From positions 1-21,164 of the IMG/VR virus record IMGVR_UViG_3300009537_000210: DNA of 21,164 bases; one strand, given 5' to 3'. The DNA is from a virus. Both the position numbers and the translations under genes were made by a program. Below are positions 3,090-21,164 of this stretch, in pieces. The notes under the pieces are model-generated. The model was not told the DNA's origin and did no database searches. It worked only from the letters and a program-made list of their open reading frames with translations. Positions within the stretch are counted from its first letter, which is position 1; every line of letters starts with the position of its first letter.

Positions 3090-4415
3090 CTAAAGGATCA
3101 GATACGTGAAGTGGAAGTAGACATAGGACAGCGATGAGACGGCCGCTCTGTACGTCGCACGGCAGACATCAGCCGTGACTTCCGCATAGATCACCAATGG
3201 CTGTACATACGGAGCCGTCAGGTCTCCTCCGCTTCCTGCGCATTGAAACGATGTCGCAAAGTTTGACGCAATCGGGAGAGATATATCGAAAATGGTTGAT
3301 GTGGCTCCTGATGTTGCGTCGATGCTTAGGCCGCCGCTGACCGTAACAACGTTTCCGACGCGCATCCATTGGCTCACCTGTGCCGTTGACGAGTCTATGT
3401 TTACAAAGTTAGTTATGGTTGGCGTGTAAGTCCCGCTGACGATGTACTGATTCGTCGTTCCGGTGACTGCTCCGGCGTTATTGTGCAACGCCGTTCCGTA
3501 TGGAGCCCCTGTGGCGCTAAGCTTTACAGAGCCGCTTGACGAACCCGATAGCGTTGGGTTTGAAATCGTAGGGCCGGTGTTCATCACGAACGTAGAGCCC
3601 GTTCCAGTCTGCGCGGCTACCGAGGTTGCATTCCCGACGCTGGTGATCGGGCCAGTCAGGTTCGCATTCGTAGTGACCGTGGAAGCGGTTGTGGCGGTCG
3701 TAGCAGTTGTAGCGGTCGTGGCGGTCGTGGCGGTCGTGGCGGTTCCTGCCGTCAAGCCTGCCGCCGTGCCGGTCGCATTGGTCAATACGATTGCCGATGG
3801 CGTCCCGGCATCACCATTGAATAGAACGGGCGCACCCGCGCTTCCGGTATTCTGAGCAAGCGCTGTTGCGACCCCGGTGCCAAGACCGCTCACTCCGGTG
3901 CTGATCGGTAGCCCCGTGATGTTCGTTGCCGTCCCTGATGACGGCGTTCCCAACGCACCATTGAATAGAACTGGCGCCCCAGCGGTCCCAGCATTATTCG
4001 CCAATGCGGCGGCGACCCCGGTGCCAAGGCCACTTACCCCGGTGCTGATCGGCAATCCTGTGATGTTTGTTGCGGTTCCAGACGAAGGTGTTCCAAGCGC
4101 CCCATTGAACAAGACCGGAGCCCCTGCGCTGCCAACGTTCACGCCGAGAGCGGTGAGTATTCCTGTACCTGTGGTAATGGCCTCCTGCGCGCTGCCGCCG
4201 CTATTGATGGCGACGAGCTTGCCGCCGTTCCCGGTGTAACCCGCTATCTTCGTGAAGCCGGTGGCGATGCTGGCGAATTCAGCGCGCATCACCGACGATG
4301 ACAGCGCGGCACCTGTTGCAGGGTTCCCAGTAGCAGTGAAATAGTCCGCGCCGATCGCGGTGATACCGAAAACAATCGCACTCAACGCCACGGCAACGCG
4401 CAGAACCTTTCTCAT
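3090..4415 (-). CDS. Tail fibre/receptor-binding protein with signal-peptide-like start, 441 aa
   Basis: Residues 1-22 form a basic start plus hydrophobic core (MRKVLRVAVALSAIVFGITA), like a Sec signal peptide or membrane anchor. Residues 28-65 (TGNPATGAALSSSVMRAEFA, then GFTKIAG) match the virion-attachment start seen in many phage tail fibres. Residues 97-192 hold two near-identical 48-residue repeats and a partial third (AGAPVLFNGALGTPSSGTAT). Residues 222-243 are a TATTATTATT low-complexity run. The last ~120 residues form a beta-rich tip domain with MRVGNVVTVSGGLSID, resembling C-terminal domains of phage fibres. ATG at 4415 is chosen over an in-frame GTG at 4421 because GAGGAG is seven bases from the ATG but only one from the GTG. 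It overlaps the upstream gene's stop codon region. It probably binds the host surface. Confidence 0.85.
   Translation of the reverse strand: MRKVLRVAVALSAIVFGITAIGADYFTATGNPATGAALSSSVMRAEFASIATGFTKIAGYTGNGGKLVAINSGGSAQEAITTGTGILTALGVNVGSAGAPVLFNGALGTPSSGTATNITGLPISTGVSGLGTGVAAALANNAGTAGAPVLFNGALGTPSSGTATNITGLPISTGVSGLGTGVATALAQNTGSAGAPVLFNGDAGTPSAIVLTNATGTAAGLTAGTATTATTATTATTATTATTASTVTTNANLTGPITSVGNATSVAAQTGTGSTFVMNTGPTISNPTLSGSSSGSVKLSATGAPYGTALHNNAGAVTGTTNQYIVSGTYTPTITNFVNIDSSTAQVSQWMRVGNVVTVSGGLSIDATSGATSTIFDISLPIASNFATSFQCAGSGGDLTAPYVQPLVIYAEVTADVCRATYRAAVSSLSYVYFHFTYLIL
3685..3738 (-). repeat. Six tandem 9-base units in the tail fibre gene
   Basis: Six consecutive 9-base units of the form gcggtcgtg (plus-strand reading) occur here, three of them identical and the others with one to three changes. 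On the coding strand they encode repeated Ala-Thr-Thr triplets. Because the unit is a multiple of three, gain or loss of copies keeps the reading frame and would only lengthen or shorten the fibre's low-complexity linker. Confidence 0.85.
3790..4127 (-). repeat. 144-base tandem repeats in the tail fibre shaft
   Basis: Two full 144-base units (about 3984-4127 and 3840-3983) and a partial third (to about 3790) encode 48-residue repeats beginning AGAPVLFNGALGTPSSG and containing LPISTGVSGLGTGVA. Protein identity between the two full units is very high while the DNA shows many synonymous differences. Such repeats are typical of the shaft of phage tail fibres, where they set fibre length. Confidence 0.85.
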
Positions 4416-4417
4416 GC

Positions 4418-6505
4418 TCACGCTCCTCTTTGCAAACGTCTCTCAGAGTAATGAATGATCGCCCCGCTAAAATTGAGCGCCTCGTCGTAATCCGAATCAC
4501 CGGAAATGATCAGCGAAATGTTCTCTGCCTCTCCGGGACAATCAAATGTCGATGGAGAAAGAACCTGCGCATCCCATACGCCAACGTCCCATACGAGACC
4601 TGCCTCATCCCATGCGCCCGCAGAAAAGTTGGCAGTTCCGTCCTGCATATCAGGCTGGCCGATGTCCGTGCTGTTATAGCCGAGCGCGTAGGAAAACTTG
4701 AAAGCGCCGTACCCGGTGCCTGCAATCTCCAGAATCACATCGTAGAAACGCTTGATCACTCCAGGCGAGCCAAGAAAATCCCACGCCAGTCTGAAATAAT
4801 GCGCGATGTTGTCGCCATCAAACGACGTGCCTTTCTCCATCTGGTAGACCATCCCATCGTCGGAGCCGAAAAATATGGTTTCCGAGCCATCGGGTTCTTC
4901 GGACGAATAGGCCCACGTCACTGCGTCGACAAAGATCATGGGCATGATGCCAACCACTTTCCCGCCGACGAAGGTGACGAACGCGGCCGATCCATCCGAG
5001 AAGAACAGCCGGTACTGGCTTTTGTCCCGGGATATGCAGGATGCAACCGCAAGGGAGCGGTTGCTGTTCAACCATGTCCTGATCTTGGCGCTGATGGCGT
5101 TGTGCGCGAAGTTACCGTAGGTCTGCGCGGCCACCAGTGTTGTGATACCCTGGTCGTCCAGGAACATCGTCGTGCCCATGTCCTGGATTGTGTAGGCGTA
5201 GGCCCCCAATTCTTTGCGGTATTCGATCAACTCCCAATCGGCTACCCCGGTGCCGTACAGGATGCTGGTCTGGTTGCGCGTGAAGATCGCCAGTGCACTA
5301 GCGGTTTCGCTGCCTGCCTGGGACATGAATCCGGTTACAGTATCGCTCATCGCCAGCTCTGCGGCACCAAGGATTGCTGACCAGATATATGGCGTCCCCG
5401 GGCCTGCATGTTGTACTGACTCGTCGAACGAAAAGAACAGATGCTTCTTGTGCGTCCAAACGTGATTGGGGGTGTCCACCGTCATGCCGGTGGTGATCGG
5501 GACCAGTATGGTTCCGTCAAACTCGAACCCGCGGTTGACGCCATCGCATCCGTAGATCCGCTTCGTCGCCACGCTGCCACCAAAATTATCGACGAGGAAT
5601 TCGTATCTGCCGCCCGGCAGTAGAGTGATGGCCGTCTGGATTGCGGACAGCGTGCATGTCGCGCCGCCGGAAAAAGTCGCTGCGCCCGCGGCGAAATTCC
5701 CGCCGGCCGGATTGGTGATGATGAGCCGTCCCGCTGCGGTTGTCGTGGCCCAGGTCGATGATGCTGTGGTTGCCACCACGCGCTTTACCGTCGCCGTAAC
5801 GGCGCCTTGCGTCAATACTTCCCCCTCAGCAGGTTCCGTAGCCCCGCCAATGGTGAAGCTGATCTCGTTGTAGAGCGTGACCTGGACCCACCCTGCTGTC
5901 GAGGACTTCCAGACATCGACGGCTGTTGCTCCGGCATTGTTGCGGAAGGTGTATGTGACACCACCAAATCTGACCCCACCAAGATTCGATCCCGAGCCTG
6001 TCGGTGCTGCGATATCATCCCGATAGACATCTGCCGCCAGATTGTTGTACTGGGCATGCAGGAGGACCGTCGAGGCTCCGTTTACCGTCCCGGCAGTCGT
6101 GGCAACGGCGATGGTCGGACCGCCGACATTCAGGTTCTCGCCCGCCACATAGGCAGTTCCGTTGCGCTTGGTCAGGACGAAATACGTGGCTGTCACCGCA
6201 ATGATGACGCCGGTAGCCCCGCCGGCGCCGGTTAGAGTGTCTCCTACCGCGCCCCCGGTGATGCTGGTGCACGGCAATACGGTATAGGTTGCGGCCGAGG
6301 GGGAGGGCCTACCGTCGAAGCGTTCATAGCCCTTGATGCGGCCGTACCCGCCTATTATGTTCGCCTCGTAATTCTGAGATTCCCTGAGAAATCCTGATTT
6401 CAGGAACAAAGGTGGAGTGACCTGATCCCACCCGCCCAAGAACCGGATCGCGTATGACTTGATCTGTGCCAGTCTGATCTTGGCGAGTGCGAGGGCGGTT
6501 TTCAC
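4418..6505 (-). CDS. Large tail protein, probable nozzle/tail tube-like, about 695 aa
   Basis: The start of the protein carries YAIRFLGGWDQVTPPLFL and SQNYEANIIGGYGRIKGYER, a pattern I associate with the large tail protein that follows the adaptor gene in many short-tailed phages. Residues ~70-300 are beta-rich with repeated Gly/Thr stretches (GDTLTGAGGATGVIIAVTA). The central part (WTHKKHLFFSFDESVQH, FTRNQTSILYGTG, FLDDQGITTLVA) resembles a beta-propeller as in podoviral nozzle/stabilisation proteins. I prefer the GTG at 6505, just after the adaptor's stop codon and with GGTG seven bases upstream. An in-frame TTG at 6529 would overlap the adaptor by 20 bases and lacks a visible ribosome binding site. 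The fibre gene follows immediately. The nozzle role is inferred from order and fold-like features; the gene itself is certain. Confidence 0.82.
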   Translation of the reverse strand: MKTALALAKIRLAQIKSYAIRFLGGWDQVTPPLFLKSGFLRESQNYEANIIGGYGRIKGYERFDGRPSPSAATYTVLPCTSITGGAVGDTLTGAGGATGVIIAVTATYFVLTKRNGTAYVAGENLNVGGPTIAVATTAGTVNGASTVLLHAQYNNLAADVYRDDIAAPTGSGSNLGGVRFGGVTYTFRNNAGATAVDVWKSSTAGWVQVTLYNEISFTIGGATEPAEGEVLTQGAVTATVKRVVATTASSTWATTTAAGRLIITNPAGGNFAAGAATFSGGATCTLSAIQTAITLLPGGRYEFLVDNFGGSVATKRIYGCDGVNRGFEFDGTILVPITTGMTVDTPNHVWTHKKHLFFSFDESVQHAGPGTPYIWSAILGAAELAMSDTVTGFMSQAGSETASALAIFTRNQTSILYGTGVADWELIEYRKELGAYAYTIQDMGTTMFLDDQGITTLVAAQTYGNFAHNAISAKIRTWLNSNRSLAVASCISRDKSQYRLFFSDGSAAFVTFVGGKVVGIMPMIFVDAVTWAYSSEEPDGSETIFFGSDDGMVYQMEKGTSFDGDNIAHYFRLAWDFLGSPGVIKRFYDVILEIAGTGYGAFKFSYALGYNSTDIGQPDMQDGTANFSAGAWDEAGLVWDVGVWDAQVLSPSTFDCPGEAENISLIISGDSDYDEALNFSGAIIHYSERRLQRGA

Positions 6506-6509
6506 GACG

Positions 6510-7223
6510 CTACACCAATGGTTCGCCAATCCGGCATTCCGGGCGCTGGTTTCCTTCCAATTGACGCATCAACTTGTTGCCCTCGGTGGTCCCGCGCGAT
6601 AACACGTCGGGCGCGGAACGGAAGGTGCCGTACTTCTTCATCGCCTCGTAGACGAGCAGTTGATGAAAATCCGATGGCAGTTCCGGCGTGTCACCATTTG
6701 CCGCTAGGACTTGCGCGCTCATCTGATATTCGCCGGTCACCGTGTAGACGGCATCCGGCTTCGGCCCGAGGACGAGATTGCGCTGTGGGTCCACGGTTAC
6801 ATGCACCGGGAAATTGTCGGTTTGCGTCCCGCGCTTATACAGATCCCGAAACTGCGCCCAGGGCAAGGGAGTCAGGTAACGCTCGCCGGCCACGCCGTCT
6901 GAGGTCAGGTAGATCTTGACGTTGGGGAATCCTTCGTTGTCCAGCAACCACCACCGGGAAAACCGCGTGATGACCCCAGCCAGCCTAGAATCCGTCACAT
7001 CGCCGTAGGCATAGGTGTCATCGCTGGCCACCGTGTTGACCGTGAAGGTCGAGCGCAACCACAACCAATCCTTGTGCCGGTTTTGCACCTCGATGTAGCC
7101 GTTTTTCACCCACGCGACGATTCTTTCCAACTCGCCGGTCTGCTCGGTCACGGCCGCAGGGCCTGTACCGGTCACGCCGCACTCGCGCCTAGCGTCAACG
7201 CATAGCTGGAGAAATGTGCTCAC
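6510..7223 (-). CDS. SU10-type head-tail adaptor protein, 237 aa
   Basis: The protein resembles the adaptor family typified by Escherichia phage phiSU10. It opens with a helical segment (STFLQLCVDARRECG), followed by TGELERIVAWVKNGYIEVQ and a Trp-rich patch (HKDWLWLRSTFTVNT). Later come LPWAQFRDLYKRGTQ, the beta hairpin LVLGPKPDAVYTVTGEYQMS, and LPSDFHQLLVYEAMKKYG. Adaptors of this group form a ring under the portal and connect it to the tail nozzle. The length of about 240 residues is normal. The start is GTG at 7223, four bases past the preceding stop, with AGGA about nine bases upstream. It lies directly before the large nozzle-like gene, as expected for neck genes in short-tailed phages. 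Confidence 0.8.
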   Translation of the reverse strand: MSTFLQLCVDARRECGVTGTGPAAVTEQTGELERIVAWVKNGYIEVQNRHKDWLWLRSTFTVNTVASDDTYAYGDVTDSRLAGVITRFSRWWLLDNEGFPNVKIYLTSDGVAGERYLTPLPWAQFRDLYKRGTQTDNFPVHVTVDPQRNLVLGPKPDAVYTVTGEYQMSAQVLAANGDTPELPSDFHQLLVYEAMKKYGTFRSAPDVLSRGTTEGNKLMRQLEGNQRPECRIGEPLV

Positions 7224-7571: not shown

Positions 7572-9578
7572 TTACGCGTTGCTGGCCGGCCGATGACCTT
7601 GGAACTTGATGTAATCAATGGCCACCGTGCAAGCCGTCTGCGCATCCACCGCGCTGTCACCCCAAATGTAGGGGATCAGCAAGGCCGTTGTCGCTACTGC
7701 GGTTGCCCGGGTAGCTCGGAGAACGCCGTCGATGTAGAACCTGGCATCCCCAGAAGCATCAACTTCGATGCGCAAAACCTGGTAGGTATTAACGGCCGGA
7801 ACATCCGTCAAAGGTTCTTCAGCGGCTGCGTTGCCAACCGTGCCTCCATTGGTCGAACATGCCTGCCACTGCGCCGTGGTTGCATCGGTGTCGAACACGA
7901 AGGAAATGGCGTTGGCGATGCCAGCGTCATCCGCAACTACCCCGCTGTTGACGGTGTAATTGGCAACCTCCGTGTCATTCGCCAGCACGTCGCCAAGGCC
8001 GAAGCCCCACGAACAGCCGGTAATCGCCGAGAACGAAACGCGCGTCTCGAATACCGTCTTGCCGAGGCTGATCAGAGATCCCTTGGCCACCAGGATCAAG
8101 CTCATCACGGTCTTGTCTTGGGCGTCGTTGGCGGCGCCGTTGATCATCGTGACCTGGCCTTCAGGCGCCGTGACCGTGGCAGCCGCTTGCGCAGCACCAG
8201 TCGTGCCGTCGAACGTGATCCAGTTATTTGTCGTGTCAAGAGCGGCAGCAAGGAAGTCGTCGAAGACCTCGAAGTGCGTCTCGGTTGTGGGCTCGGCAGC
8301 CGACTTCTTGGCATACCACTGGGTCGCCGAAATCGCTTTGAACGTGGCTTGTTGTTTCGGCCCAAGGATAAAGGCTTCATCCGCTGCCAGTTCGTTGATC
8401 ACATCATCGCCGGCATTCACCGTCCAAACCTTCACCGCATAGATCGGGTGATCGTTGATGACCGTGTACTCCAGCAGATCGGCCGCAGCGGGCAAACTGA
8501 CTCCAGCCGCACCATCGGCGCCAGTAACGATCGTCAGCTGATCCACAAGCGCCGCTGCATCCCCCTGACCTGTTCCAGCCGCGGCCAGCGTATCAGCCGA
8601 GAGCTTGAAGAAGTCGCCGTCGCCCATTGCGAAGTCGCCATTGGAATCGCGAACCATGAAAGTGCCGGTCGCGCCTGGGTCAGGAATCGTCAGGGTAGAT
8701 CCCTGACCAAACGAGGCATTTGTAACGACAACTTCGTGATCCGCAGCGTTGTCGGCCGCCTTGAACACCAACTCACCGCGCTGGGTCGTCGGTGCCGGCA
8801 AGACCAGCGCTTCATTGGTCTCCCAAACCGTCGCGCTGATCGCGCGGAACGTCAGTTGCCCGCCAACCGGAATGTTGACCGACAGGTCGACGGCCAGGGC
8901 GTTGATGCTGTCCCCGCTGAACGGGAACACTGCTAGGCTTGCCGCACCGGAGTTCTTGACGGTGATCTTCCGCCCCTGCACTGCGGTCGGCAGATTGACG
9001 CTATCCCCGGCGGTCGCGCAGGTTGTGACGTTGTTGAACTCGCCGGTGAGGGCCGTGCCCGGGTTGGCGCCGCCAGCAAGGGCCGTGATCGTGGTGTTGT
9101 GGTCGTAGGCGTTCGGGGCGCTCGACGTGATGTTGGTCGCGGTGATGGCGCCGAACACTTCGGTCGTGCTCACCCCACCGAGACGGATGTAGTTCCCCTG
9201 CACCACGCAGATGTACCACACGCCGTCGCCGGCCAGATGCTCTACCCCCGTACCCGTCGCCACAGAATCGATGGTGCTGGGCGAGGTCGCGAATACCTGC
9301 ATGGCAAGCGCCGCGGAGTTCTTGACGAAGTGGGATTCCCCGACCATCGCCAGAGGCAGCAGGATCGAATCGGCGGCCGTCGCAACCACGGTGACATCGT
9401 GAAACGAACACTTCTTCTTCAACGGGGTTGCGTTCGCCTGCCCGCCGCCGGCATACGCGGTAATGGCCGTGTCAAAGCCGGTGGGGGTAATGATCGACAT
9501 CACCTGCGTCAGCGCGTTAACGATGCGCTTGTCGTTGATGCTGTTCAGGTACTCCTGAATGTCTGACTTCATGCTCAT
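7572..9578 (-). CDS. Putative capsid decoration/head fibre protein with lectin-like C-terminus, 668 aa
   Basis: Residues 1-33 are a helical leader (SDIQEYLNSINDKRIVNALT). Three related beta-rich modules follow at about 35-135, 160-255 and 340-425. Modules 1 and 2 share ITA.AGG...(A/T) near the start, then VTT.ATA.DS..LP and VKNS. Modules 2 and 3 share TF(R/K)AISAT.W at their ends. A region at 290-330 (TIPDPGATGTFMVRDSNGDF) looks like a linker. Residues ~435-668 resemble a concanavalin/LamG-type fold, with FEVFDDFLAAALD, a strand-rich middle, TYQVLRIEVDASGDARFYID and IDYIKFQG. The start ATG at 9578 has GGAGA seven bases upstream; an upstream in-frame extension to 9620 lacks such a site. Its position just past the capsid block suggests capsid decoration, but a tail fibre is possible. 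Confidence 0.8.
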   Translation of the reverse strand: MSMKSDIQEYLNSINDKRIVNALTQVMSIITPTGFDTAITAYAGGGQANATPLKKKCSFHDVTVVATAADSILLPLAMVGESHFVKNSAALAMQVFATSPSTIDSVATGTGVEHLAGDGVWYICVVQGNYIRLGGVSTTEVFGAITATNITSSAPNAYDHNTTITALAGGANPGTALTGEFNNVTTCATAGDSVNLPTAVQGRKITVKNSGAASLAVFPFSGDSINALAVDLSVNIPVGGQLTFRAISATVWETNEALVLPAPTTQRGELVFKAADNAADHEVVVTNASFGQGSTLTIPDPGATGTFMVRDSNGDFAMGDGDFFKLSADTLAAAGTGQGDAAALVDQLTIVTGADGAAGVSLPAAADLLEYTVINDHPIYAVKVWTVNAGDDVINELAADEAFILGPKQQATFKAISATQWYAKKSAAEPTTETHFEVFDDFLAAALDTTNNWITFDGTTGAAQAAATVTAPEGQVTMINGAANDAQDKTVMSLILVAKGSLISLGKTVFETRVSFSAITGCSWGFGLGDVLANDTEVANYTVNSGVVADDAGIANAISFVFDTDATTAQWQACSTNGGTVGNAAAEEPLTDVPAVNTYQVLRIEVDASGDARFYIDGVLRATRATAVATTALLIPYIWGDSAVDAQTACTVAIDYIKFQGHRPASNA

Positions 9579-9670
9579 GATGGTTCTCCGAAAAAAGGAC
9601 GAAAGGGGCGAAATGCCCAACCGCTATACTGAGTACGATCGGCCTTTTTTAAGGGCCGTTTGCTGCTACT
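9579..9670 (-). promoter_or_regulatory. 92-base intergenic region before the decoration-like gene; weak signals only
   Basis: This is one of the largest gaps between genes. On the minus strand it contains an imperfect inverted repeat GGCCCTTAAAAAAGGCC (9636-9652), an AT-rich GTATAG near 9625 that could be a -10 box, and a short GGGC/GCCC hairpin followed by CCTTTCGTCCTTTTTT next to the ribosome binding site. None is a textbook promoter or terminator: the -35 match is poor and the hairpin has only four base pairs. It may carry a phage-specific promoter or weak terminator for the following gene. Confidence 0.3.
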
Positions 9671-16413: not shown

Positions 16414-17781
16414 CTAGAGTCCGACTGCTGAATCGTGTGGGGTGTAGGTCGAGCCCGGGCGAGCTCGTGGCCGCGGATCATTCCTGATCTGGTCCACTAT
16501 CGTTGCCAGGCCCCGAAATGCGTCTGCCCCATGGCTGTACTCATCATGCACCGGCGCGGCCGGCTCGCCAGTCTTCTCAGGAATCGCGCGCCTGTAGCGC
16601 TTCAGGCATTCCAGCAACCGCCCGACCCCAACGTATCCGGTCCCATTCTCTATGCCGGGGCCGTCATCGAAGTACGTCCGCGGGAACATCATCCTCGCGG
16701 CCTTGATCCCCGACTCTACGACCAACTTCGGGATGATCTTCACCTTGCGCCGGAGCCCCTCCAGGATCTGCTTGCCGCTTTTGCCGGCCTTCGGGTCCTT
16801 GCTTTCTCCGTCGTGCGGGAGCCAGTCGTCGCCCCAGACGTAGTGCAGATCGTTCAGCTGCGCGACGTACTCTGCATAGGTTCGGAAGTTGTCCTCGATG
16901 TAGCCGATCACCATGACTGCGGACGGCAGGCGTTGAACCAGTATGATCGTCATCGCGTCGTTCCACCCCAGATCCCAGATCGTGTGCACCGGCAGGGCGG
17001 GATCGTATGGCGTGGGTCTGATCCTGCGCTTCTCGATCGCATCCAGGACCTCGCGGGCGTAAATCGCGCCAGCAACCACCAGTCTCGGCATGCCGCCGTA
17101 CACGTGCCGGTATTCCTCTGGGTCGGAACGCAGCAACTGCAGCCGGTGGCTGTCCAGCACTTCAGAGAACCACGGATTGTCCTCCCATGTGACTTTCTGC
17201 ACCCACGCATCATCCGGCGGCGAAACGACAAAGCGCTGATACGTGTCGTCGGTATCCAGGTCTGGGTTAAACGTCGCCCATATCTCGGACTCCGGCGCCC
17301 GAATCGTCGGTATCAGGATCTCCCATGAGCGCTTTATGATCGCGTGCGCTTCCTCAGCCCAGGCAATATCGACACCCTCAAAGGACTTGATTTTTGCCGC
17401 GTCAATGCCCCGTAGCCCGGCGAACAGGAACTCGGCCTTGTTCCGCCCGGTGATGCTCGCGTCCTGCACCTGGAAGTAGCTCCCTGCATTCAGCGCCGCG
17501 ATCTGATCAGCCAGTAGCTTGTGCACGGAATCCGCGATGGTCCGCTGGATCTCCCGCACGCACAGTATCCGCAACGGGTCGTAGATCGCCAGGAGAATTA
17601 GCGCACGCCCGAACGTCCAGCTCTTAGCGCTATCCCGACCTCCGTGCGCGATGTAGTAGCGCCGGCGCTTGACGCTGTAATCCCTGGCGCCGTTCTTGTA
17701 CCCCTCCAGCAGCGGCAGCAGCTTGGCCGGAATCTCAACGCGGATTGACAGATTTTCGCGCTGGCTCGATGCCGACGACAT
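16414..17781 (-). CDS. terL: Terminase large subunit, 455 aa
   Basis: This is the packaging motor ATPase and nuclease, of the PBSX/Terminase_3-like type. The Walker A is GGRDSAKS at 47-54, a variant of the usual GxxGxGKS, with Asp and Ala replacing two glycines. The Walker B with catalytic glutamates is VDIAWAEEAH at 137-146. A coupling motif follows (SEIWATFNP, 165-173). The C-terminal RNase H-like nuclease shows acidic residues in IWDLGWND (268-274), LPHDGESKD (321-329) and HDEYSHGADAFR (412-423). Length is normal. The ATG at 17781 overlaps the small subunit gene by 47 bases and has GTGAG upstream, suggesting coupled synthesis. The protein docks on the portal and cuts and translocates DNA. 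Confidence 0.95.
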   Translation of the reverse strand: MSSASSQRENLSIRVEIPAKLLPLLEGYKNGARDYSVKRRRYYIAHGGRDSAKSWTFGRALILLAIYDPLRILCVREIQRTIADSVHKLLADQIAALNAGSYFQVQDASITGRNKAEFLFAGLRGIDAAKIKSFEGVDIAWAEEAHAIIKRSWEILIPTIRAPESEIWATFNPDLDTDDTYQRFVVSPPDDAWVQKVTWEDNPWFSEVLDSHRLQLLRSDPEEYRHVYGGMPRLVVAGAIYAREVLDAIEKRRIRPTPYDPALPVHTIWDLGWNDAMTIILVQRLPSAVMVIGYIEDNFRTYAEYVAQLNDLHYVWGDDWLPHDGESKDPKAGKSGKQILEGLRRKVKIIPKLVVESGIKAARMMFPRTYFDDGPGIENGTGYVGVGRLLECLKRYRRAIPEKTGEPAAPVHDEYSHGADAFRGLATIVDQIRNDPRPRARPGSTYTPHDSAVGL

Positions 17782-18331
17782 GGATACTCACGTTGGTAGG
17801 TAGTCTCTGCTGTTCGTTGTCTTTCTCGTAGAGCCCGTGGTACTTCATCGCCTTTTCGAGCGCGGCGTTCTTGTCCCAGTGCTTGATCTTCTTCAGTTCT
17901 CCAACCTTCCTGCGAGCCTCACCGCGACCATCGAATACATCCTCAACCTCGACGCTTGCCACAGTAGCCGCCGTATCATCATCCAGTTGGAGCACAGGAA
18001 TCAGATTGCCATCGGCGTCATAGAGTTTGCGCGGGTCAGAGTATGCGAGACGCGCAACCTCGCGCAACGTGCGCTCCAGGTCCAGCCCCACGATTTTCCC
18101 GACTTTTTCGGCCTCAACGCGCAGTTCAGCCGCAAACGCCGGATCAGTCATCAGGCGAGAGCCCTGCTGTCCAGCGGTCTTGGGACTGAATCCGGCCGCC
18201 AGGGCTGCCGCCGTGCAATTGCCTCCGTTGGCGAGCCACGCGACCTTGAATAACTGCCGACGTTTCGCGGCCTCCGCCTTGCTGGTCCCGAGCTTGACGC
18301 GCTTGCTTCTCTTGGCCCGTTTCTTTTTCAC
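17735..18331 (-). CDS. terS: Terminase small subunit, 198 aa
   Basis: It resembles the Terminase_2/XtmA small subunit family. A very basic leader (residues 1-28, Lys/Arg-rich) is followed by a helix-turn-helix-like DNA-binding region (FKVAWLANGGNCTAAALAAG, then FSPKTAGQQGSRLM). Residues ~75-170 form the oligomerisation part, with LERTLREVARLAYSDPRKLY and a LKKIKHWDKNAALEKAMKYH helix. The small subunit recognises the packaging site and regulates TerL. The start is GTG at 18331, three bases past the upstream stop; I see no alternative ATG. It is the first gene of the packaging pair. Confidence 0.9.
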   Translation of the reverse strand: MKKKRAKRSKRVKLGTSKAEAAKRRQLFKVAWLANGGNCTAAALAAGFSPKTAGQQGSRLMTDPAFAAELRVEAEKVGKIVGLDLERTLREVARLAYSDPRKLYDADGNLIPVLQLDDDTAATVASVEVEDVFDGRGEARRKVGELKKIKHWDKNAALEKAMKYHGLYEKDNEQQRLPTNVSIHVVGIEPARKSVNPR

Positions 18332-18514: not shown

Positions 18515-20707
18515 CTATCTCCCGTTTGCAACGATCCGGTATTGGTCGTCGTTCGCCGCCTCCTGCGGGTTGACCCAAGCTACGCGGTAAGGCATCAGCC
18601 AGGACGAATCGGCGGTCTGCATTGCGGCTTGGGTGGAGGACATTGCGGCGAGCCAGATCCTCACGTTGCGGATGGTGCCGAATAGCTGGTTGGTTGAGGC
18701 GCTAAGATCCGGCCTCACCCCGATACCTAATACAGCACTGGTATTCAGAGAACCGTCAAACACTTGTTCAGTTCCAAGAGTGCCATTCACAGCACCGATA
18801 GTTGTCGCGCCACCCCAGTTAATGCCTACCTTAGTACTCGTAAGCAGGGGCCGAGAAACAGATGGGCCGCTTTCTCTGGTAGTCGTTACATCATATAGCG
18901 ATAGCTTGTTGGTGGTTTCTATAAATAACGGAACGCCGCCACCACCACTAAAGGTGTCACCTATGGGCGCATAACTACCATCAATGCCGCTGGTGGTGAT
19001 TTCTGCATAAATAGTACCAGCACTGTTTTGGATATTCCCCGCCGTCACATACGTCAGCACATCCCCCGCCTTGCTCACGTTGACCGGAATCGGCGTCGGG
19101 TTGGCGAAGGCTGCGGGTTCGAGGGTGTTGAAATCGACTTCTATTGCATCCGCGTTCGTCGTGATCCGGAAGCCGACGACAGGATTCGCCTGAGTGCGCG
19201 TGACTTGGAATAGCTTGTAGGTAGTGGTGAGCGTCGAAGTGATGTCCGTCCAGTTCGCTCCGCCGTTGTCCGTCATTTCGATAGTGCCGGTGCCTGTCTT
19301 GCGGCGTACCAATCCGCTGTAGGTATATGCAGCAGACCCTAGAACTGTCGTGAACAGGATCGTATTCGTCGCCGTGACTGCTCCACCCGTGAGGCTCGCG
19401 GCGGCATCCGTAACGCCATCCGTCCCTACAGCAGTCCCTACCGTCATTGTCGCGCCAACTACCCATCCTGCGTCCGTCATCGTGCGGCGGATCGCAGCGG
19501 TAGCTCCTAACACGTCGGCACGAGCACCTTCGGAGAGATAGCCAGTCGGACCATCTGCATCTACTACGCTAAGCGCTACACCATTCGCGCACTCAGCTTC
19601 AGCGCTCGTGATCAACGCCCCCGTCGCCTCGGTCACGACATTGGAAGCTACCGTGTTCCCGTTCAGGGTGTCGAAGTATTTCACTCCATCCACGCCAGCG
19701 CCGTGGAAGGGGGCGGAGAGGAATCCGTTGCTTACAGCCTCGGACGGATTCTGATTTGCCTGCCCGGTCACGTCCTCGACCATCGGCAGATACAGGTCTA
19801 TGGCATCGCCTGTCGTTCTGAGGAATATAGAAATAGCGGCGCCGTTCCTAAGCGCGACCGCTGAGGTCACGCGCACCCATGAGGATGAGATATTCCCGGT
19901 GATGGCTAGCAGTGTTCCAGCGGTATTAGAGAACTCCACCACTCCAGTGCCAGTCCGGCGGCGCACATAGAACGTGTACCTGCTGCTACGCCCAGTTGCC
20001 GATGCTGGCGTCACGTAAATACGGGAGTCTGCCGCAGCGTTGGTGGCCGTAAGCGTTATCGCATTTGTGTCGCCTGCCGGGTCTGCAATCCCTGTCGTTC
20101 GCGTGGCGTCAGCCGCCACAGTCCATGTGGACATATCGGAACTGACAAGATTCTCTACCCGCCTCGCCCCCTGCATCCTCGCCTCACCACTCAGCGCGAG
20201 ATTATGCTTGCCCTCGAAGTCGATCTGGTAGGCAGTCGTGGCGCGGGTGAAGGTGGGGGTGGCGCTGCCCGCGCTCCAGGATGGAACGAGCGTGGTCTGA
20301 AGCGGTGCGAAGAAGTCCGGGACGGGCGGAGTCGTTCCGGTGGCGCCAAGCCACGGCGTCGTGAATAGCGCGAGTTGGTCAAGTGGATCGGATGGCGGCC
20401 CGCGCGCGCTCTGCGGCCAATGCAACCAGGACCATGAGGACGGTTCGACGGTGTAGAAGTATTCTCCGTCGCCCGACCGCTTCGCCGCGTGGCCGGATGA
20501 GGAATCTATCGCGTGTGGCTGGTGATCGAGGCGCGTCTGGCTGATCTCGATGATGCTCTTGCCATCGGCATCTGATGCCGAGAAAGAGCAATCGCCTTGG
20601 CAGGTCAGTTCAGGGAATGCTTGCGCGTCGTGGCGCTGCACTACCCCCGGCAAAAACGAGAGCAGTATGGCTACAACCAGGACATACAGGATGGATCGCT
20701 TGATCAT
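18515..20707 (-). CDS. Large secreted-looking lectin/fibre-type protein, 730 aa
   Basis: Residues 1-30 form a signal peptide: a KR start, hydrophobic core (ILYVLVVAILLSFLPG) and a plausible cleavage after DAQA. Residues 31-145 are a unique segment with cysteines at 36 and 40. SATPTFTRATTAYQIDFEGK (148-167) resembles N-terminal modules of phage proteins carrying lectin-like domains. Two jelly-roll-like modules follow (about 190-312 and 413-535), each with an RR(R/K)TGTG..E motif, and a C-terminal concanavalin/LamG-like domain ends in LFGTIRNVRIWLAAM (675-689). ATG at 20707 begins just after the preceding gene's stop; the 53-residue upstream extension is Arg/His-rich and overlaps that gene, so I reject it. 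No strong ribosome binding site is visible. It probably binds carbohydrate, on the virion or at the cell surface. Confidence 0.82.
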   Translation of the reverse strand: MIKRSILYVLVVAILLSFLPGVVQRHDAQAFPELTCQGDCSFSASDADGKSIIEISQTRLDHQPHAIDSSSGHAAKRSGDGEYFYTVEPSSWSWLHWPQSARGPPSDPLDQLALFTTPWLGATGTTPPVPDFFAPLQTTLVPSWSAGSATPTFTRATTAYQIDFEGKHNLALSGEARMQGARRVENLVSSDMSTWTVAADATRTTGIADPAGDTNAITLTATNAAADSRIYVTPASATGRSSRYTFYVRRRTGTGVVEFSNTAGTLLAITGNISSSWVRVTSAVALRNGAAISIFLRTTGDAIDLYLPMVEDVTGQANQNPSEAVSNGFLSAPFHGAGVDGVKYFDTLNGNTVASNVVTEATGALITSAEAECANGVALSVVDADGPTGYLSEGARADVLGATAAIRRTMTDAGWVVGATMTVGTAVGTDGVTDAAASLTGGAVTATNTILFTTVLGSAAYTYSGLVRRKTGTGTIEMTDNGGANWTDITSTLTTTYKLFQVTRTQANPVVGFRITTNADAIEVDFNTLEPAAFANPTPIPVNVSKAGDVLTYVTAGNIQNSAGTIYAEITTSGIDGSYAPIGDTFSGGGGVPLFIETTNKLSLYDVTTTRESGPSVSRPLLTSTKVGINWGGATTIGAVNGTLGTEQVFDGSLNTSAVLGIGVRPDLSASTNQLFGTIRNVRIWLAAMSSTQAAMQTADSSWLMPYRVAWVNPQEAANDDQYRIVANGR

Positions 20708-20709
20708 GC

Positions 20710-21164
20710 TTACGCCGTGCAGGTGAAGTTCTGGGCGTCGATGGTGCCGTACCAAGTCGTACCGCCGTCGTACGTGAACCAGGTGTACTTGTCGCACTTG
20801 CCGCTCGTCGAGCTTGGCGTAGGGGCGGCCCCGCCGTTGTTGATCCAGGTCGCTCCGCTCATCCATGCGATAGTGCGCGGCGTCCCATCGGCCCGGTAGA
20901 TCAAAATGAAACTGGATACCGTGCCAGTGGCGGCCGGATTGCTCACCGTCGTCGTGGTGACGTTCGCATCGAGGGGGACGACGAAGAAGTTTGCGAGTGC
21001 AAGATTGAGCGTGATGACACCAGCCGCGATGGCAGGCGCGGCCTTGGCCATCTGCGCGTAGGTGAACCCCCCTCCGACTGGCGTAGTCAGACCAATCGCG
21101 GAGTTATTGATTGTCGCGCCGCTGATCGTGCTCGACCATGTGCCGGTCGTGACCGTGCCGGTCG
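20710..21164 (-). CDS. Partial tail fibre protein, C-terminal end
   Basis: The frame is open to the right edge of the window; about 150 residues are visible and the true start lies outside. The beginning has TGTVTTGTWSSTISGATINN and IGLTTPVGGGFTYAQMAKA, a pattern common in phage fibre shafts. The last 85 residues (FFVVPLDANVTTTTVSNPAA, then SSFILIYRADGTPRTIAW, WINNGGAAPTPSSTSGKCDK, FTYDGGTTWYG) match the beta-rich C-terminal fold widely seen in tail fibres and appendage proteins. A methionine at 21051 is internal and not the start. It is followed three bases later by the start of the lectin-like protein. Confidence 0.85.
   Translation of the reverse strand, partial: TGTVTTGTWSSTISGATINNSAIGLTTPVGGGFTYAQMAKAAPAIAAGVITLNLALANFFVVPLDANVTTTTVSNPAATGTVSSFILIYRADGTPRTIAWMSGATWINNGGAAPTPSSTSGKCDKYTWFTYDGGTTWYGTIDAQNFTCTA

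Follow-up and report, generated by a model that had tools for sequence, protein, structure and literature searches.

The window analysed here, meaning the whole 21,164-base stretch, is a linear virus record whose minus-strand genes form a structural module. Their order runs from a fibre fragment through SPfib, the small and large terminase subunits, a portal-type protein, a gene in the scaffold position, the major head protein and an SU10-type adaptor to further fibre-like and ejection-position genes. The presence of terminase, portal, and HK97/P22-type head genes identifies a tailed phage, and the closest large terminases among named phages belong to Pseudomonas phages such as H66 (50% identity). 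SPfib (18515 to 20707, minus strand, 730 aa), identified as a signal-bearing lectin/fibre gene from ORF, profile, repeat, and model evidence, follows an upstream fibre gene of which only the C-terminal part falls inside the window (20710 to 21162, minus strand; phrog_9017, tail fiber protein, E 1.1e-9). The next gene downstream is the terminase small subunit (17735 to 18331, minus strand; phrog_51, E 8.3e-19). A second signal-bearing fibre gene, SPfib2, encodes 441 aa at 3090 to 4415 (minus strand). The gene before it (4418 to 6529, minus strand) matches phrog_5107, labelled amidase, over 400 residues (E 2.9e-10), but from its location within the module a connector or stabilisation protein would be expected instead. 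A 682-aa fibre-like gene without a signal (7572 to 9620, minus strand) separates the head genes from the adaptor and matched no PHROGs family up to E 1.

The SPfib ORF opens with an ATG at 20707 and its stop codon ends at 18515. Its N-terminus reads MIKRSILYVLVVAILLSFLPGVVQRHDAQA|FPELTCQGDC, and the predicted Sec signal peptide (residues 1 to 30, 20618 to 20707, minus strand; cut AQA|F) divides into MIKRS, ILYVLVVAILLSFLPGVV, and QRHDAQA, with a net charge of +2. A hydrophobic export signal had been proposed in the original prediction, and all three parts of a Sec/signal peptidase I substrate are indeed present: a positive n-region, an uncharged core of 18 hydrophobic residues (mean hydropathy 2.75), and small residues at positions -3 and -1, with the AQA cut falling at residue 30. 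Signals were called with a custom rule, not SignalP. It called SPfib with a score of 58.5, the highest among called window ORFs of 100 aa or more; the other called ORFs include plus-strand frames, which were taken as noise. Under the thresholds used for the surveys below (score of 32 or more, start within 120 codons), false positives amounted to 1/78 TerL ORFs and 9/750 codon-shuffled fibre starts (∼1%).

We considered whether a later start or a chimeric N-terminus might disguise an ordinary cytoplasmic fibre. No clear ribosome site was seen ahead of the SPfib ATG, and most relatives of its C-terminal half lack a signal (see below), as such a start-site or assembly artefact would predict. However, the ATG lies two bases past the stop of the upstream fibre gene (TAA GC ATG), and on visual inspection neither of the other in-frame starts among the first 50 codons, TTG (codon 19) and GTG (codon 23), has a well-spaced ribosome site. 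The caller also gives few false positives, and signals occur on two genes of the window. We regard an artefact as very improbable. Retention in the inner membrane by an uncut core after Sec insertion is also improbable, if slightly less so: the 18-residue core is near the length of a membrane span, but a proper AxA site follows it at 7 residues. Processing as a lipoprotein by signal peptidase II was rejected, as there is no lipobox, residue 31 is F, and the first cysteine is C36. By eye, no outer-surface targeting feature (lipobox, autotransporter, or sorting motif) was seen in SPfib, so nothing found links it to display on the infected or lysogenic cell, which the original prediction had put forward as a possibility. 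Just past the predicted cut, C36 and C40 (20588 to 20602, minus strand) are a candidate disulfide pair by position. With C373, the mature part holds three cysteines, an odd count.

The N-terminus of SPfib2 reads MRKVLRVAVALSAIVFGITAIGA and continues with DYFTATGNP. The position of the cut is less certain here, with A23 as the last residue before it by eye and residue 30 as the best site given by the program. Along with the signal, SPfib2 carries two cysteines (392 and 418), both of which are absent from the aligned, signal-less and cysteine-free tail protein of a Stenotrophomonas phage (L104). A relative of SPfib2 (L087, 5240 to 7018) begins MPNDFYAVTGSPG without a leader, and a relative of SPfib that lacks a signal (L098) is encoded on the same 61-kb contig, so the same fibre-type pair occurs both with and without signals. 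In tblastn searches of a phage collection, SPfib2 matched 7 records; in the 4 of these that were examined, the signal was absent from the four matched proteins and from 8 further ORFs of two records. The same searches returned no match for SPfib, for two signal genes of the related locus L097, or for the genes from L096, L130, and L109. The protein from L106 matched 2 named records, and both proteins start without a signal yet hold 8 cysteines; cysteine alone is therefore no mark of export.

Beyond the signal, SPfib is built from repeated modules, as the original prediction had proposed from a shared RR(R/K)TGTG motif. RRRTGTG occurs at residue 249 and RRKTGTG at residue 468, and the two repeat regions align with a score of 92, compared with 46.6 ± 8.2 (maximum, 79) for 500 shuffles. 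The first module (residues 186 to 310; 19778 to 20152, minus strand) is head-spike-fibre-like or CBM-like, based on the profile match described next and on the duplication score. SPfib matched the NCBIfam phage head spike fiber domain NF048003 in two stretches (E 2.2e-5), giving a weak match in each of the two repeat regions, with a score of 25.1 bits that lies below the curated cut-off of 36 bits. Searches with SPfib gave no match to PDB sequences up to E 1 and nothing above the cut-off in Pfam, and neither SPfib nor SPfib2 matched PHROGs up to E 1. The second module (residues 402 to 528; 19124 to 19504, minus strand) is predicted to be a CBM-type beta sandwich from structure comparison with the xyloglucan-binding XG34 module 3jxs_A (Z 10.2, rmsd 2.8, 119 aligned) and the K2-2 tailspike 8iqe_A (Z 9.8, rmsd 2.7, 117 aligned). 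Structure prediction of both modules had been suggested originally, and it bore out the second; the model of whole SPfib is poor (mean pLDDT, 44.8), and no fold is claimed for module 1 or for residues 31 to 124.

For the C-terminal part (residues 560 to 702; 18602 to 19030, minus strand), a LamG-like fold had been predicted. A jelly-roll likeness emerged, of CBM40 type and from the same low-confidence model, which gives this part of the prediction weaker backing: the best rows match residues 125 to 702, in discontinuous segments, to jelly rolls of CBM40 type (5fra_B, Z 10.7, rmsd 3.9, 145 aligned). The modelled jelly roll is probably completed by strands near residues 125 to 165, and the pairing of residues around 125 with those up to 702 in this weak model suggests that the CBMs are inserted in the jelly-roll domain. 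A relative, L092, was modelled with a mean pLDDT of 55.5 and up to 93 by block, the well-supported portion being the CBM part only. That part resembles 8xmz_A (Z 11.9), 4xuo_A (Z 11.3), 8iqe_A (Z 10.9), and 5w6h_A (Z 10.8), with agarase-, porphyran-, and xylan-binding modules at Z 11 to 12. Its C-terminal part had no separate row in the PDB list, and in the viral library the best rows for L092 include phage proteins named “Concanavalin A-like lectin,” with low TM-scores.

Module 2 and the L092 relative thus share the fold of CBM22-, CBM16-, CBM29-, and CBM4-type modules and of the CBM-like domains of the tailspikes K2-2 TSP and CBA120 TSP4. Unlike in those proteins, no catalytic domain was recognised in SPfib, and sequence identities are about 8 to 15%. 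Sequence and predicted fold together support the earlier description of SPfib as a fibre-type lectin with duplicated sugar-binding-like modules, sugar binding being predicted from the fold.

The match to NF048003 recalls the head spike fibre of the gene transfer agent RcGTA (Rcc01080): two stretches of SPfib match this domain, and SPfib lies beside head genes. RcGTA head fibres are reported to bind capsule (PMC10218006, PMC7296036), and the hydrophobic N-terminus of the fibre, a peptide with Ile-Ala-Leu-Gly repeats, can serve as a virion anchor (PMC7296036). The original prediction had offered an uncleaved hydrophobic start anchoring SPfib in the virion as an alternative to export, and for this the RcGTA fibre provides both a precedent and a module likeness, although the fit to the SPfib N-terminus is less good. 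SPfib differs from Rcc01080 in its two modules, its probable jelly-roll part, and the Sec signal that stands in the position of the glycine-leucine anchor peptide. On comparison of the N-termini, SPfib lacks the RcGTA-type anchor peptide: it shows no alternating glycine pattern and instead has an 18-residue unbroken hydrophobic core after KR, ending in AQA. The cysteine density, cysteine parity, and signal clustering reported below are also not expected of an anchor. We consider a virion anchor unlikely, and less likely than a free exported lectin, the main rival discussed below.

Scans with the C-terminal half of SPfib recovered 12 viral loci and 1 bacterial locus, which became 11 distinct relatives once L090/L091 and L099/L100 were merged. 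A signal peptide is present in one of them (L097) and absent from the other ten, so the proposal that all relatives are exported proved too strong. The signal gene of L097 stands within a run of four signal-bearing genes, between the portal and maturation protease genes. The relatives consist of a short N-terminal stretch, one CBM, and the C-terminal part, to which SPfib adds a second CBM-like module. Homologues starting downstream of the hydrophobic segment had been named as a concern for the export signal, and on this point the relatives give a mixed picture. The ten signal-less relatives differ from SPfib over their entire N-terminus and therefore give no evidence of a later SPfib start, and L097 has a signal. 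Three of the ten (L002, L096, and L099) still hold 7 cysteines. One signal-less relative (L100, 5305 to 6795) lies on a scaffold of Zavarzinella formosa (Planctomycetota), and the IMG/VR contig L099 is identical to it. Across 80 loci related by TerL to the window, plus L002, a signal was called in 13/543 ORFs with a length of at least 150 aa, none of them fibre-like by eye; the phage group to which the window belongs thus does not typically show the signal trait.

We surveyed phage fibres in three samples, all recruited by similarity to fibre parts outside the signal. From the SPfib2 repeat family, 80 of 540 loci were kept and 71 were N-complete. Four of the 71 carry a signal (L165, L166, L175, and L195, with 10, 2, 5, and 14 cysteines, respectively), a count that includes L165 at a score of 37, under the first threshold of 40. 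When an A was required at the end of the cut, L195 escaped the rule and an internal start was called in L209. The other 67 average 0.24 cysteines per 100 aa, in a counted set that still included L195. A motif shared with an L097 gene recruited 25 loci after the query's own contig was dropped; 4/25 were called by the strict rule and 6 by eye (L108 and L109 by eye only). The third sample, the L195 family, retained 80 of 580 loci, of which 66 were distinct and N-complete, and 8/66 bear a signal, query included.

In this third sample, cysteine density was about 7 times higher in the 8 signal-bearing proteins than in the 58 without a signal (1.58 versus 0.23 per 100 aa). With the query removed, the seven remaining signal proteins average 1.51 (p 7e-6), and only 1/58 signal-less proteins reaches the lowest density of the seven, counted on mature parts. 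The cysteine-free recruiting octamer FWRGDGTW is held by 65/66 of the sample, and among its holders alone the contrast stays (1.69 versus 0.25, whole frames). No such enrichment is seen in the non-signal ORFs (at least 200 aa) of these contigs (0.56, n = 19, versus 0.66, n = 159), so the contrast does not stem from host or phage-lineage composition.

Even cysteine counts together with high cysteine density are expected of disulfide-forming proteins, and in most bacteria disulfides form outside the cytoplasm. We examined parity in a pool of 38 low-charge signal-bearing ORFs (150 aa or more, score of 35 or more). Among fibre-like ORFs having cysteine, the count is even in 30/36 with a signal (p 3e-5), compared with 141/337 without, noting that the first pool was partly recruited by signal-bearing queries and that the signal-less pool includes spurious frames. 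For ORFs with two or more cysteines, the figures are 30/34 and 141/230 (Fisher p 0.001), and the tendency is weaker (16/22, p 0.026) when each contig contributes a single ORF and two close relatives are left out.

Signals are also clustered along the genomes. They occur in 12/32 low-charge neighbours of signal-bearing fibres and in 5/193 otherwise (p 3e-8), and an earlier pool contained 7 same-contig signal pairs, above every one of 5000 label shuffles. Signals on neighbouring genes fit export, since partner proteins would need to reach the same compartment. As for genomic setting, the signal-bearing fibre of L233 matches phrog_11393 (tail-fibre) and is encoded after the major head protein, with a head-tail adaptor gene on one side and a gene for head closure (phrog_578, E 1.6e-92) on the other. 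On the contig shared by L105 and L097, the run of signal genes is surrounded by genes for terminase, portal, and maturation protease. Any virion- or tail-type PHROG was matched by 4/10 of the signal-bearing proteins scanned (L233, L211, L085, and L213).

Several other loci have comparable arrangements. L286 (2435 to 8240) contains at least 5 consecutive signal-bearing genes by the survey rule, the first encoding a 788-aa fibre-like protein, and the gene preceding this run matches tail fibre families. In L264 (3401 to 8097), three consecutive signal genes encode 549, 270, and 745 aa, with 12, 6, and 14 cysteines in their mature parts. Fibre-like proteins of ∼1025 aa with a signal by eye are encoded in L085 (2952 to 6032) and L086 (6705 to 9776), each followed by a 167-aa signal-bearing gene. 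The related phages L109 (4936 to 6951) and L111 (6339 to 8033) have the near-identical leader MKKLLLALLF(I/V)L(I/V)ALPLQAQS at the start of fibre-like genes that differ in the remainder, with smaller signal-bearing genes nearby.

The cysteine density, the even counts, and the clustering of signal genes suggest that signal-bearing phage fibres are a recurring group that is really exported, with disulfide formation. For SPfib, the Sec anatomy, the second signal gene in the window, and the richness in cysteine, with mostly even counts, of signal-bearing phage fibres as a group give comparative support to the export that was originally predicted.

Based on these observations, we propose that SPfib is a late fibre of the structural module that would be exported by Sec, fold outside the cytoplasm, bind sugar, and join the virion at lysis. 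Residues 1 to 30 would probably be a Sec substrate that signal peptidase I removes, judging from sequence anatomy and group statistics. With slightly less confidence, the mature protein would then fold outside the cytoplasm, with disulfides forming in this protein group, as cysteine density and parity indicate. A little less surely still, on the basis of fold only, the two CBM-like modules and the jelly-roll part would bind surface polysaccharide. Once holin and endolysin have breached the inner membrane, fibres in the periplasm could meet particles from the cytoplasm; given export, it is about an even chance that the fibre would join the virion there, the phage finishing its fibres outside the cytoplasm. 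Export, cleavage, and oxidation are the best-supported steps, and the chain as a whole is plausible at somewhat less than an even chance. The odd cysteine count of SPfib and the signal-less state of ten of its eleven relatives, three of them with 7 cysteines, weigh against it, and as a further counterweight attachment after lysis would need to overcome dilution. The P22 tailspike is known to join heads in extracts, which shows that a fibre can in principle be added late.

The main rival is that SPfib is a free lectin, secreted to the periplasm or beyond without being part of the virion, where it would bind sugars of the infected cell's capsule or LPS and mask receptors from other phages, or soak up receptor fragments after lysis. 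The evidence for export serves this reading equally well; moreover, SPfib has binding modules and no recognised virion-attachment domain (no PHROG match, and NF048003 below its cut-off), and the signal-less fibre-like ORF at 7572 to 9620 could serve the virion. However, a single decoy would not need the runs of adjacent signal genes (four in L097 and three in L264), those runs include proteins whose signal-less relatives lie in virion modules, and SPfib shows no signal for outer-membrane targeting. We consider a free lectin rather unlikely, and prefer loading onto the virion at lysis because runs of neighbouring genes carry signals and signal-less relatives occupy virion modules.

In the textbook account, tailed-phage assembly takes place in the cytoplasm, and virion proteins that pass through Sec are familiar from the filamentous phages, whose coat proteins carry signal peptides. 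Unlike those phages, which assemble in the membrane, the window is from a tailed phage. Tailed phages can send a late protein through the host Sec system, as PMC6116005 describes for the signal-peptide endolysin Lys44 of fOg44 and for SAR endolysins. Unlike these endolysins, which act in lysis, SPfib is fibre-like, non-enzymatic, and encoded in the structural module. Within the open-access literature searched, which covers few subscription journals, fibres of tailed phages were not described as bearing signal peptides.

We suggest, still more tentatively than for SPfib itself, that tailed phages may have a second, so far unrecognised route of fibre maturation, in which the products of whole blocks of fibre genes pass through Sec, are oxidised in the periplasm, and are loaded at lysis, signals and cysteine pairs having been added repeatedly to many unrelated families. 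If a share of fibres (8/66 and 4/71 in two of the samples) is exported and oxidised, then either a part of the virion would be finished outside the cytoplasm or lectins would be released apart from the virion. Either outcome, if true, would change the annotation of fibre genes and the understanding of superinfection and adsorption. The laboratory expression of receptor-binding proteins would also be affected, as fibres rich in disulfides could misfold when they are expressed in the cytoplasm without their signal.
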